This document shows positions 5,205 to 45,424 of a DNA stretch of 48,130 bases, piece by piece. The notes beneath the pieces were generated by a model that worked only from the letters and a program-made list of their open reading frames with translations, was not told the origin of the DNA and did no database searches. The position numbers and the translations under genes were made by a program. How positions within the stretch are numbered: position 1 is the first letter of the stretch; every line of letters begins with the position of its first letter. The stretch is from Syntrophomonadaceae bacterium (GTDB taxonomy: Bacteria; Bacillota; Dethiobacteria; DTU022): NCBI GenBank assembly GCA_007119965.1, contig SKOR01000077.1, forward strand, positions 1-48,130, in the 5' to 3' direction.

Positions 5205-7859
5205 ATGCGTATTACTCATCGCATGATCGCCAATACAGTTAACTATAACCTGCAGAACAGCCTGCGGAGCCTCGAAAAATACAGTAATCAGCTGTCCACC
5301 GGCAAGGCCTTTCAGCGGCCGTCAGAAAACCCGGTCGGGGTTGGCCGCGTAATGGGTTATTCGGCTTCGATCAACCGCAATGAGCAGTTCCGGCTGAATA
5401 TGAATCAGTCCCAGGGTTGGCTGGAGAACAGCGAATATGCCCTACAAAACAGCCTTGATGTCATGCAGCGGATTCGCGAACTAGCTATCTACGGGGCCAA
5501 CGAAAGCCTGACTGCCGAAGATCGGCGCGCCATTGCCCCTGAAGTACTCGAATTTATCGATCACCTGATCGGCATTGCCAATACAGAATCAAACGGCCTC
5601 TATATCTTTGGAGGGCACCAAACCCTCAAAGCGCCGTTTGTTCGTGAAAATGTTTACGGTATAAAAGCCCACTACCTTGAAACCAGCCATAGCGGCCACG
5701 CTGTGTTTGACGCAGGGGAAATCGAGGCGGGCACGGCAGGCAGGGAGATTATTTTAAACATTACAGTCGATGGAGAGAAGTATACTGTCAAAACCGTTTC
5801 GGGCGGCGCTGACAGGGCTGCAACATTTGACAATCTAAAAAATGCCATTGAAAGCCACTCCAGGCTGGCCAGGCATATCGCGGTTACCGGTGATGAAAGT
5901 GCCATGTTTCTTTCGAGGACAGCCCCCGGGGATTTCACCATTCATGCGGCAACTGAAGAAGCTGTAGCGGTGCTTGGGAACCTGGCCGAAGATGCGCCCC
6001 TGGCGGAAATACTTGCTGCGGACCAGAATATCAACCTGTCGGGGGGGATCAGCCCAAACAGCTTTTTGGCGGGGGATTATAAAATTATGACTGAAGACAC
6101 CGGCGGTGCTTATGCAGTGAATGCGGGTACGCAGTTCATTGAATATTCGCAATCCGGTGATCCCCTGGTGAACAGCATCAATGCAGTATCAGCAGGCCGG
6201 AACCAATCGGTGTCATTCGTGGCAGCAGAGATTGACGGCACCGATGTAACTTTTTCCTATGAATATAAAGAGATGGATCCGGGCAGCGGTGCTGTTACAA
6301 TGAACAGGGGCTCGGTTACCATTGATAAGTCGGCAGCAGTCCCGCAGACAATAACGGTTGGCAGCGTCGAATACGAAATAAACCTGAACAATCTTGAATT
6401 TGCCACAGGCGACAGGATGGTTATCAACACAAATGCAGAGATTGCAGAGCCGGGCGAAGCCGATCTCGTCCATCTCTATAAAGACGAAGAAGCAAACCTC
6501 ATATTTACTTTTGCTTTCGAACAGGATGCACTGATCGATGGAGTTCACAATTTCGTATTTTACTCCCTGGACCGGCAAAGCGGGGCGCTCCTCAACTCAT
6601 CTGTAGACCTCGAGTGGGGCGGCTCATTTGGTACCAATACTGACTACGACTTCCCTGCAGCAGGATTTACGGTTGGCGTCCTTGGCGAGAACGGCAGTTT
6701 TGCTGAGCGAACCGAAAAAGTTTCAGCCGGCGGATTGCAAAACGGGGCCTATCAGCTGAGTCATACAGGCCTGACCTCAGACCGGGATTATGAGGGTTCT
6801 GCGCAGGTAGTTCAGCAGTACCTGCAGGGCGAGGCCGCTTCAATTCTGAGCGGGTCAGCAGGCCCGGGCCTTGTTTCCATGGATATTGCCGATGCAGACA
6901 AGAATGCCTCAATTCTTTTGGAAGTGAGAGAGGTAAATCCCGAAAACGGCACAGTTAAATTTAGCTACAGATCGCATCAATATGATCGCGATGGTAGTTA
7001 CCAAAAAACGGAAGGCAATATCACCCTTGATTTTGGCGGCGATGAAATTCAAACTAAGGCTGTCGGCGGCCTTAATATTAATTTCCGGGGACTTGATAAT
7101 TTATCTCCTTCCGATGCTGAAGGTTTGAAAGCAGGCGACCGGGGTATTGTAAATATAACACCCTCCGTGTCCGCAGGTGAATCATATGAGCAGTTTAACA
7201 TAACCGGTGAACATCGCGGCAGTGATTCGGAAGCGCGCTATATTTTCACAGAAGGGGCCCTGGCGGGAACGGATACTGAACTGCGCTACTTCAGCCTTAA
7301 TACATTCAAGCGCTCACCCGATCACGGCCGAATTTATGACGGTGCGTTTAAGGTAAACGATGATACGCTGGAGCTGCTTCGTCTGCCTCAAAACCAGGTA
7401 TTCCATTATGACAGCAGCGGCTTTCCCGTTTACTACGGCGATAATAAAGATCGGATCCAGGAAATAAGTCCGCACCAGGAAGTAATCATGAATATGAATG
7501 GTGAAGAAGCTTTTGGCCCAAACCAGGAAATATTTGAAGCTGTTTACAATGTATACTGGGCCCTGATGGAAAATGATCGCGAAACTTTAGGTGACGGAGC
7601 CCTTGAAAAAATGGATACGGCTGTAGATCAAATCCTGGAAAATTTATCCCAGGTCGGCGCCCGATCGAACCGTGTAGAAGCGATGCAGAGCACCCTGTTC
7701 AGTGAAAACCTTTATCTGCGGGAAGTCCGCTCGAATATTGAAGATATAGATCTGGCGCATGTCATTACCGAGTTTACAATGCAGGAGAATGCCTATCGTG
7801 CTGCTCTTTCGACGGCATCAATGATGATGCAGCCCAGCCTGGTCGATTACCTGCGCTAG
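5205..7859 (+). CDS. flgL: Hook-associated protein FlgL (HAP3), greatly enlarged
   Basis: An 884-residue protein starting at ATG 5205 with GAGGAGG just upstream. The first 145 residues are typical FlgL/flagellin D0-D1 (MRITHRMIANTVNYNLQNS, QLSTGKAFQRPSENP, GLYIFGGHQT). The last 100 are the matching C-terminal helix (GARSNRVEAMQ, ITEFTMQENAYRAALSTASM). FlgL is usually about 300 residues. Here about 600 residues of beta-rich, acidic sequence are inserted between the two coiled-coil ends. The insert appears to hold two diverged copies of one unit, starting near residues 278 and 505; compare VTFSYEY and VKFSYRS, GSVTID and GNITLD. The insert should project from the junction as an outer domain. 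Confidence 0.93.
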   Translation: MRITHRMIANTVNYNLQNSLRSLEKYSNQLSTGKAFQRPSENPVGVGRVMGYSASINRNEQFRLNMNQSQGWLENSEYALQNSLDVMQRIRELAIYGANESLTAEDRRAIAPEVLEFIDHLIGIANTESNGLYIFGGHQTLKAPFVRENVYGIKAHYLETSHSGHAVFDAGEIEAGTAGREIILNITVDGEKYTVKTVSGGADRAATFDNLKNAIESHSRLARHIAVTGDESAMFLSRTAPGDFTIHAATEEAVAVLGNLAEDAPLAEILAADQNINLSGGISPNSFLAGDYKIMTEDTGGAYAVNAGTQFIEYSQSGDPLVNSINAVSAGRNQSVSFVAAEIDGTDVTFSYEYKEMDPGSGAVTMNRGSVTIDKSAAVPQTITVGSVEYEINLNNLEFATGDRMVINTNAEIAEPGEADLVHLYKDEEANLIFTFAFEQDALIDGVHNFVFYSLDRQSGALLNSSVDLEWGGSFGTNTDYDFPAAGFTVGVLGENGSFAERTEKVSAGGLQNGAYQLSHTGLTSDRDYEGSAQVVQQYLQGEAASILSGSAGPGLVSMDIADADKNASILLEVREVNPENGTVKFSYRSHQYDRDGSYQKTEGNITLDFGGDEIQTKAVGGLNINFRGLDNLSPSDAEGLKAGDRGIVNITPSVSAGESYEQFNITGEHRGSDSEARYIFTEGALAGTDTELRYFSLNTFKRSPDHGRIYDGAFKVNDDTLELLRLPQNQVFHYDSSGFPVYYGDNKDRIQEISPHQEVIMNMNGEEAFGPNQEIFEAVYNVYWALMENDRETLGDGALEKMDTAVDQILENLSQVGARSNRVEAMQSTLFSENLYLREVRSNIEDIDLAHVITEFTMQENAYRAALSTASMMMQPSLVDYLR

Positions 7860-8327: not shown

Positions 8328-8750
8328 GTGGTGGCAAAGATTAAACCAGGATATAACGCACTCCCTGATAAAGATCCCGGCAAAAAAAGTTTTTCCTGTT
8401 CGATAGAAAACCTCATTTTTCTGGAAGACGTCCTGGAAGAAGAGCGTGAGGCAATTGAAAAGTCTGATCAAGAATTTCTGCAACAAATTGGGGATCAGAT
8501 CGATCGCCTGCTCGAAGAACTCGCTGTTATAATGCCCCACGGGGACGATCTCCCCCGGGAGCAGGCAGAACTGCTGCTCCGGGCAATAGGAAAAGTCAAA
8601 AGCAAAAGAGAGTCTAATTGCCGGCTGATCGAAGCCACAGTTCAGGATACAGGAAGGGCTATAGGGCAGGCCTCGGCAGGAAGGCAGGTTTTAAAGGCAT
8701 ACCGAGGATCAGGTTCCAGGAAAGAGCTGTTTTTGAAAAAGAAATGCTGA
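8328..8750 (+). CDS. Hypothetical helical protein, possibly FlgN/FliT-like
   Basis: A 140-residue charged protein starting at the paired GTG codons at 8328, eight bases after the fliW stop. No family was recognised with certainty. Most of it is predicted helix with heptad-like spacing: IENLIFLEDVLEEEREAIEK, then FLQQIGDQIDRLLEELAVI, then EQAELLLRAIGKVKSKRESN. The C-terminal AYRGSG..KELFLKKK resembles the short tail seen on some Gram-positive FlgN-like chaperones. It occupies the position that csrA normally has after fliW. A secretion chaperone role is a guess from size, composition and place. It ends the upstream gene block, before the promoter and riboswitch of flgB. Confidence 0.55.
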   Translation: MVAKIKPGYNALPDKDPGKKSFSCSIENLIFLEDVLEEEREAIEKSDQEFLQQIGDQIDRLLEELAVIMPHGDDLPREQAELLLRAIGKVKSKRESNCRLIEATVQDTGRAIGQASAGRQVLKAYRGSGSRKELFLKKKC

Positions 8751-8911: not shown

Positions 8912-8941
8912 TTGACCGAAACGTTACTGCTCTGCTATAAT
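8912..8941 (+). promoter_or_regulatory. Sigma-A type promoter of the flgB transcript
   Basis: TTGACC at 8912-8917 and a perfect TATAAT at 8936-8941 are separated by 18 bases. The predicted transcript start, about 8948, lies immediately before the first paired base of the c-di-GMP aptamer. That spacing supports both calls. An AT-rich palindromic stretch lies directly upstream. Confidence 0.8.
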
Positions 8942-8950
8942 AAAAATGTA

Positions 8951-9036
8951 AGTGACTGTTAAAGGCAAACCCGTAGAAATGCGGGGGCGCAAAGCCATGG
9001 GTCCGCCTACAGCGGATTGCCAGGTTGCCGGTCTCT
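8951..9036 (+). ncRNA. Class I c-di-GMP riboswitch aptamer (GEMM-I)
   Basis: The leader shows the GEMM-I core in order: GGCAAACC at 8964-8971, a stem 8971-8975/8980-8984 closed by a GAAA tetraloop, CGCAAAGCC at 8988-8996, a second stem TCCGC/GCGGA at 9002-9006/9012-9016, and GCCAGGTTGCC at 9019-9029. The closing stem P1 is formed by 8954-8958 with 9029-9033. The GAAA loop is the expected GNRA loop that docks into the second helix. The aptamer binds c-di-GMP. The segment GGTTGCC (9023-9029) can instead pair with GGCAGCC (9070-9076) in the downstream terminator, which predicts an OFF switch in the presence of ligand. Confidence 0.92.
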
Positions 9037-9066
9037 AAATCATGGGAAAAGTCTATATAATAACCA

Positions 9067-9098
9067 TGAGGCAGCCAAATTGGCTGCCTCATTTTTTT
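9067..9098 (+). terminator. Riboswitch-controlled intrinsic terminator
   Basis: A near-perfect hairpin, GAGGCAGCC (9068-9076) with GGCTGCCTC (9082-9090), lengthened by flanking A-T pairs, is followed by seven T residues at 9092-9098. It sits about 30 bases after the aptamer and upstream of the flgB ribosome site. Its 5' arm is complementary to the aptamer's 3' core, so it is the expression platform of the c-di-GMP riboswitch. Confidence 0.92.
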
Positions 9099-9124
9099 GC
9101 CTGAAAATTGGGGAGGGTGCAGAA

Positions 9125-9529
9125 TTGTCTCTGTTTCGCGATGATACAATGTCCCTATTATTAAAAGGATTGGATGCAGCTTCCCTTCGCCAGCAGGTAA
9201 CCGCAAATAACCTGGCTAATATGAATACACCCGGTTTCCAGCGCAGCGATGTCTCTTTTGAAGATCAACTGCTGAAAGCCAAAGGCCAGACAAACGCTCC
9301 GCTTAGCAGGACCCATCAAAAGCATTTTCCCCTTACACCGAATCCTGACATCGCTCCCCTCATTAAAACCGATCGGACTACGGTCAGGAGAATTGATGGC
9401 AGCAATGCAGATATTGAAAGAGACATGCTGAATATGGTCAGCAACCAGCTGCGTTATAATTCTTATGTCCAGCAGTTGAACACACGTTTTAACAACTGGC
9501 GTTTTGTAATTAATGAAGGGAGGCGTTAA
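9125..9529 (+). CDS. flgB: Flagellar proximal rod protein FlgB
   Basis: A 134-residue rod protein. The open frame runs further upstream through the riboswitch, but the family N-terminus (LFRDDTMSLLLKGLDAASLR) and a GGGAGGG seven bases upstream place the start at TTG 9125; ATG 9149 is the alternative. The rod family signature TANNLANMNTPGFQRSDVSF follows. The C-terminal NADIERDMLNMVSNQLRYN is typical of FlgB. It forms the proximal rod with FlgC and FliE. As first gene after the c-di-GMP riboswitch, it and everything transcribed with it should fall when c-di-GMP is high. Confidence 0.95.
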   Translation: MSLFRDDTMSLLLKGLDAASLRQQVTANNLANMNTPGFQRSDVSFEDQLLKAKGQTNAPLSRTHQKHFPLTPNPDIAPLIKTDRTTVRRIDGSNADIERDMLNMVSNQLRYNSYVQQLNTRFNNWRFVINEGRR

Positions 9530-44212: not shown

Positions 44213-45424
44213 ATGAACATATATGTAGCCAGGCAGCCGATTTTTGACAGGCGCCAAAAAGTAATTGCTTACGAACTATTATACCGCACCAGCGAGGAGA
44301 ATATAAACCTTGAAACAAATGCGAGCCTGGCCACATCTGAGGTCATATCAAGCAGCTTTCTAAATATCGGGCTGGATAAAATTACAAGGCGGAAACGGGC
44401 TTATATAAATTTCACGAAGCAGCTGCTGGAAGACGGGACTGCTTACCTGCTGCCCCATGATTTAATTGCCATAGAGATTACCGAAAACATTAACCCCGAT
44501 CAAAATACTATTGAAGCCTGCAAAAAACTTCACAAAGACCGTTACAGCCTGGTCCTAGATGACTTTAACATGGACTCCAGGTGCCTGCCCTTGCTTGAGG
44601 TGGTCGATATTGTCAAGGTTGATTACCAGGGTACGGATGAAGCGCAGCGTTCAGGTATTGTTGATTTCTTTAAGGGCAGAAAGCAGAAGCTGGTTGCTGA
44701 AAAAGTCGAAACGGTGCATGAATATGGCGATGCCATGGCCAGCGGTTATGATTACTTCCAGGGGTTCTTTTTCTGTGAACCCACTATCGTGATCGGCAAA
44801 GAAATTCCCAGCACGAAAATGCAGAATTTAAGATTGCTTCAGGAGATCTATAAATCTGAGATGGATTTTGATTGCATTGAAGTTTTAATAAAACAAGACC
44901 CTTCCCTTTCTTACAAACTGATGCGTTTTATAAATTCTGTCGCCTTTCCGTTACGCTTTCCAATTCGTTCCATACGTCAGGCCATCGCTTTGCTGGGGCA
45001 GAAAGAAATGATCAAGTGGGTTTCGCTGGTTGCCCTGCGCAATGTAGGCTACGATAAACCTGATGAATTGATCGTAACCGCCGTTTCGCGGGCAAAGTTT
45101 TGTGAATTGATGGCAAAAGTAACAAACCTTGAGGATCGCAGCGCCGACCTTTTCCTGGCTGGTTTATTTTCATTGCTTGACACCTTTCTGGACCAGCCGA
45201 TGGAAGCAATCCTGGCTGAGCTGCCCCTGGCTGAAGAAATTAAAGCGGCCCTGCTTGGAGAGCCGGGTGAATTTAAAGATATCTTAGATATGGTTCTGCT
45301 GTACGAACAGGGTTCCTGGGACAAAGCTTTTGATATTGCAGCCAGGCGCTATCACCTTGATGAAGTTGAAATCATGTCTTACTACCTCGAATCTCTGGAA
45401 CTGGCTGACCTGGCCTGGAAGTAA
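44213..45424 (+). CDS. EAL-HDOD signalling protein (YuxH type)
   Basis: A 403-residue protein with GAGGGGG upstream of ATG 44213. The EAL-like part (about 1-200) reads VARQPIFDRRQKVIAYELLY, INFTKQLL, AIEITENI, VLDDF, VKVDYQGT and VAEKVET. The HDOD part (about 200-400) includes FDCIEVLIKQDPSLSYKLMR, FPIRSIRQAIALLGQKEMIK and ADLFLAGLFSLLDTFLD. Members of this architecture often have lost c-di-GMP hydrolysis and act as scaffolds or regulators; the active-site residues here look partly kept, so activity is open. It closes the motility block and adds to the c-di-GMP theme. Confidence 0.9.
   Translation: MNIYVARQPIFDRRQKVIAYELLYRTSEENINLETNASLATSEVISSSFLNIGLDKITRRKRAYINFTKQLLEDGTAYLLPHDLIAIEITENINPDQNTIEACKKLHKDRYSLVLDDFNMDSRCLPLLEVVDIVKVDYQGTDEAQRSGIVDFFKGRKQKLVAEKVETVHEYGDAMASGYDYFQGFFFCEPTIVIGKEIPSTKMQNLRLLQEIYKSEMDFDCIEVLIKQDPSLSYKLMRFINSVAFPLRFPIRSIRQAIALLGQKEMIKWVSLVALRNVGYDKPDELIVTAVSRAKFCELMAKVTNLEDRSADLFLAGLFSLLDTFLDQPMEAILAELPLAEEIKAALLGEPGEFKDILDMVLLYEQGSWDKAFDIAARRYHLDEVEIMSYYLESLELADLAWK

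Follow-up and report, generated by a model that had tools for sequence, protein, structure and literature searches.

The leader in front of flgB in this genome raises the question of whether c-di-GMP could turn off a whole flagellar operon at this point, and by which bases. It lies in a stretch of 48,130 nucleotides (the window; positions are counted from its first letter) from a Syntrophomonadaceae bacterium. We read the leader as a c-di-GMP-I riboswitch whose OFF platform controls transcription, and give this reading a probability of roughly 0.87.

On the 5' side of the leader lie, all on the plus strand, flgM, flgK, a gene for a flagellin-domain protein at the flgL position, fliW and an ORF at 8328-8750. 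On its 3' side, again all on the plus strand, come flgB, a second basal-body rod gene at the flgC position, fliE and a long flagellar and chemotaxis cluster, which includes fliM, fliN, cheA, a gene for a PilZ/YcgR-type protein and one for a sigma-70 family factor at the usual fliA/sigD position. The flgL-position protein (5205-7859) has 884 residues, with a long insertion between its flagellin N- and C-terminal domains. The ORF between fliW and the leader encodes 140 residues with zero Pfam matches, and an EAL-HDOD protein is encoded at 44213-45424, close to the end of the motility cluster.

A sequence-only reading had described a sigma-A promoter, a GEMM-I aptamer and a terminator in the leader, and all three were found (see the table). 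The promoter, with 18 bases between TTGACC and TATAAT, matches the consensus at 11 of 12 positions and has its predicted transcription start at ~8948, ~177 bp 5' of flgB; TTGACC-N18-TATAAT also precedes the aptamer in the leaders L045, L047, L066 and L067. In a covariance-model search the aptamer matched the full RF01051 model (c-di-GMP-I, GEMM-I) at 69.0 bits (8954-9032; gathering cut-off 35). Over 86 relatives, two-sided changes were detected in 16 of its 22 pairs, a level reached by 0 of 500 shuffles; the outer P1 pairs are frequently unpaired in relatives. The terminator has 12 pairs and a loop of 3 (-21.0 kcal/mol), followed by a T-run. The source draft genome (2.34 Mb) holds seven c-di-GMP-I aptamers altogether, two of which lie on the minus strand of its own contig C32 (L002, 568-655 and 1060-1150), ~400 bases apart and 5' of an ORF.

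Table. Features of the flgB leader, in window coordinates
Feature	Position	Strand	Basis or remark
Promoter, housekeeping sigma-70/sigma-A type	8912-8941	+	TTGACC-N18-TATAAT, TG before -10
c-di-GMP-I aptamer	8954-9033	+	Covariance models; helices covary over 86 relatives
Aptamer P1	8954-8958/9029-9033	+	Aptamer fold
G at position of Vc2 aptamer G20, ligand contact	8964	+	Alignment
Aptamer GAAA tetraloop hairpin	8970-8985 (loop 8976-8979)	+	Aptamer fold
A at position of Vc2 A47	8991	+	Canonical; RF03167 consensus is G
Aptamer second stem	8993-9003/9015-9026	+	Aptamer fold
Aptamer 3' core, GGTTGCC	9023-9029	+	First predicted antiterminator strand, mutually exclusive with aptamer
C at position of Vc2 C92, pairs with c-di-GMP	9028	+	Inside antiterminator strand
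Second antiterminator helix, 5' strand, TCATGG	9040-9045	+	Folding
Second antiterminator helix, 3' strand, CCATGA	9064-9069	+	Folding; overlaps terminator foot
Intrinsic terminator	stem 9066-9092, U-run 9092-9098	+	Hairpin search, folding
Shared strand, GGCAGCC	9070-9076	+	Antiterminator 3' strand and terminator 5' arm
Ribosome-binding site, GGGGAGGG	9110-9117	+	Sequence; 3' of terminator
flgB, TTG start	9125-9529	+	First gene of long flagellar/chemotaxis operon

Whether c-di-GMP is the ligand needs discussion, since the best Rfam match at the site by cmscan is the variant model RF03167 (c-di-GMP-I-GGC; 67.1 bits, E 8.4e-14, 8955-9033; gathering cut-off 59), a classification that had not been foreseen, and in a whole-genome scan the E-value of this model is better than that of RF01051. 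As a member of the variant class, the aptamer would sense another ligand. The bit score, however, is higher with RF01051 (69.0 versus 67.1). We take the window bases 8964, 8991 and 9028 to be positions 20, 47 and 92 in Vc2 numbering, and the label GGC to stand for the bases at these positions, with G replacing A at 47. A G at position 47 is visible in the printed RF03167 alignment, whereas the window, although over the gathering score of that model, has A8991; filing under c-di-GMP-I-GGC was rejected on this ground. With G8964, A8991 and C9028, the window carries the canonical G20/A47/C92, and all 86 aptamers aligned from relatives in the same bacterial class have A at position 47 and C at position 92. 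Matches to RF03167 above its cut-off occur in 84 of the 98 genomes of the class and often coincide with those of the canonical model, so the variant model does not tell GGC from canonical aptamers. Despite the best Rfam match, the expected ligand is c-di-GMP because A8991 is canonical, and we consider a different one very improbable. On these alignments the name of the GGC model should give no reason to expect another ligand: a best match to an Rfam variant model does not imply a variant ligand pocket. Membership in RF01051, with its full-model score and canonical contact bases, is unaffected by any of these differences. An A at position 20 of c-di-GMP-I aptamers, a replacement associated with the sensing of cyclic AMP-GMP, occurs in L048 (genome G007, 1322-1400, a flgB leader), in L006 (41-129, the source genome's own contig C3) and in L027 (1501-1588), while the aptamer at L002:568-655 on contig C32 has T at this position. 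The three ligand-contact bases of the c-di-GMP-I aptamer are named in PMC11218506.

The predicted switch is centred on the 3' core of the aptamer. GGTTGCC can pair with GGCAGCC over seven base pairs, one of them G-U, exactly where the sequence-only reading had placed them, and the minimum-energy fold of the ligand-free nascent RNA uses these pairs. Since the core spans the base of the second stem (9023-9026), the ligand pocket (9027-9028) and the first base of the P1 3' strand (9029), its pairing with the arm would destroy the aptamer. The core/arm helix is extended by a second helix of six pairs that had escaped the earlier description (9040-9045/9064-9069); the antiterminator is thus predicted as two stacked helices, with a 10-base bulge separating their 5' strands. 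The core/arm duplex has an energy of -14.7 kcal/mol (p 0.0115 versus shuffled arms), and of 356 further terminator-like hairpins in the retrieved loci, only 6 match the window core no less well than the arm of the window.

Folds were computed for ligand-free transcripts of increasing length, starting at 8948. Up to 9073 the RNA folds on the aptamer side, from 9076 to 9083 the minimum is the antiterminator, and from 9086 on the terminator side is favoured. For the RNA ending at 9079, the free fold, in which C9028 pairs with 9071, has -45.6 kcal/mol versus -39.4 kcal/mol for the aptamer-locked one (~6 apart), and for the RNA ending at 9099, with the 3' arm complete, the terminator fold has -57.1 versus -52.3 kcal/mol for the forced antiterminator. 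The switch must be kinetic, because at full length even the ligand-free RNA is most stable in the terminator state. When linker and arm were shuffled, the energy gain of the window was modest (P 0.043).

These folds suggest the following course of events. RNA polymerase would start near 8948 and transcribe the aptamer. Bound c-di-GMP would lock the core within the aptamer (P1, second stem and ligand pocket), so that the arm could fold into the terminator and transcription would end 5' of the ribosome-binding site of flgB. In the ligand-free RNA, the core would pair with the arm once the latter emerges, aided by the second helix, and the polymerase would go on to transcribe flgB and the downstream genes, including that for the flagellar-type sigma factor. 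We infer the binding of c-di-GMP, the direction and size of its effect and the kinetic choice.

A constitutive terminator that ends transcription of flgM-flgK-flgL-fliW, with an accidental pairing to the aptamer, would also agree with the shared direction of the upstream genes and with the presence of the terminator in the full-length energy minimum. Against it, a strong promoter lies between those genes and the aptamer, the pairing is retained in relatives whose arm sequences differ, and the A of the arm is retained where it is mismatched in the terminator; we judge such an arrangement to be highly unlikely. The comparison rests on a family search of 43 genomes, 11 of them with flgB, which yielded ten flgB loci with upstream sequence. 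The aptamer is present in all ten of these leaders. Together with one paralogue (L003) they make up the 11 leaders in which pairing was analysed, and in 11 of 11 the best core/arm pairing covers 6-7 of 7 bases, in the 5' arm or the loop of the terminator. In ligand-free partial transcripts 6-7 core bases are paired into the arm in eight of the ten flgB leaders and in the paralogue on contig C90; the partial folds of L045 and L048 lack the 7-base core pairing, L045 using GTCTCT/AGAGAC instead.

The paired strands themselves vary: GGTTGCC/GGCAGCC in the window becomes GGCTGCC/GGCAGCC in L066 and L049, GGCTGCC/GGCAGCT in L053 and GTTGCC/GGCAAC in L051. At the variable third pair, five of the 11 leaders have C-G, three have U-G and three have U-A, and none has C-A; this count is statistically weak on its own. 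Stronger evidence comes from L046, L066 and L067, whose terminators are asymmetric: the central A of the 5' arm has an A or a G opposite it in the stem and is unpaired there, yet matches the core U. L066 and L067 are among several relatives with a linker helix of their own.

Compared with shuffled arms, the duplex gave p values of 0.0005 in L066, 0.001 in L067, 0.0015 in L053 and 0.26 in L048, and eight of the 11 leaders attain a match score seen in only 6-8 of 356 control hairpins. With linker and arm shuffled, five leaders (L046, L048, L049, L051 and the paralogue L003) showed no significant energy gain. These chance figures were not multiplied, because the leaders are related and are not independent samples. 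The paralogue itself is a predicted OFF-type c-di-GMP-I switch (L003, 1501-1640, on the genome's own contig C90) with the same GGCAGCC arm, located 5' of the gene for a large secreted-looking protein with repeats and directly 3' of two tRNA genes.

In the predicted folds and in the conserved leaders, a separate terminator has its 5' arm sequestered by an antiterminator formed in part from bases of the aptamer. This arrangement, the covariance match with canonical contact bases, the order of folds and the core/arm conservation in ten flgB leaders support the OFF logic that the sequence-only reading had proposed. The least probable alternative is an ON switch, or translational instead of transcriptional control: one C. 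difficile c-di-GMP-I switch is of the ON type (PMC3649979) and translational control has been described (PMC11218506), but here the 5' arm of the terminator shares no base with the aptamer and has the aptamer core as its competitor, and the U-run ends ~11 bases before a ribosome-binding site that is in neither helix (the folds ended 5' of the site).

The OFF riboswitch has a well-studied counterpart, the one invoked by the sequence-only reading and borne out by the literature. A c-di-GMP-I riboswitch located 5' of flgB in C. difficile terminates transcription prematurely, flgB expression falls upon overexpression of a c-di-GMP synthetase, and the OFF function has been demonstrated in vitro and in fusions (PMC3649979; PMC11477304). 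The window resembles this switch, Cdi1_3 (Cd1) of Clostridioides difficile, in its aptamer class, in flgB as the gene behind it, in its separate terminator and in its predicted OFF logic; both operons include a flagellar sigma factor (PMC3649979; PMC11477304). The promoter reported for C. difficile is 496 bp before flgB, whereas the predicted start in the window makes for a compact layout. By this analogy the leader would be a switch of the same kind in a distant lineage; the mechanism is not new, but the member is, and it is well resolved. The logic known from C. difficile would thus be common to a distant Firmicutes lineage, and although the type is well known, its switching helix is here readable from the sequence and kept in related species. 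What is added is a base-resolved, comparatively supported prediction of how, in uncultivated Syntrophomonadaceae-like bacteria, c-di-GMP could control an entire flagellar operon.

Across the wider class, the aptamer is 5' of flgB in 28 of 47 loci, two of which (L050 and L052) come without upstream sequence. In a second family (L101, L113, L116, L119 and L111) the terminator starts with ACTCTAGG(C) and its arm pairs with the GGCCTA strand of the aptamer; in several of these leaders, TAGGC within the ACTCTAGG arm pairs with the GCCTA strand. Judged by these complementarities, the pairing would constitute an OFF latch of a different design. It is conceivable, though we think it rather doubtful, that the switching helix of the flgB riboswitch has been remade repeatedly within the class (as core/arm latch, as ACTCTAGG arms, or with tandem aptamers or a U-run), and that polarity or ligand may differ among relatives at this one operon; the flgB leader of G007 (L048) even has the A at position 20. 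A U-run directly after the aptamer, without a separate terminator, was seen in the flgB leaders L065, L099, L118 and L120 and also in L001 on the source genome's own contig C50; a local hairpin search points to a possible extended P1 or a short hairpin in these leaders. Tandem c-di-GMP-I aptamers precede flgB in L065 and L104 (genomes G054 and G085).
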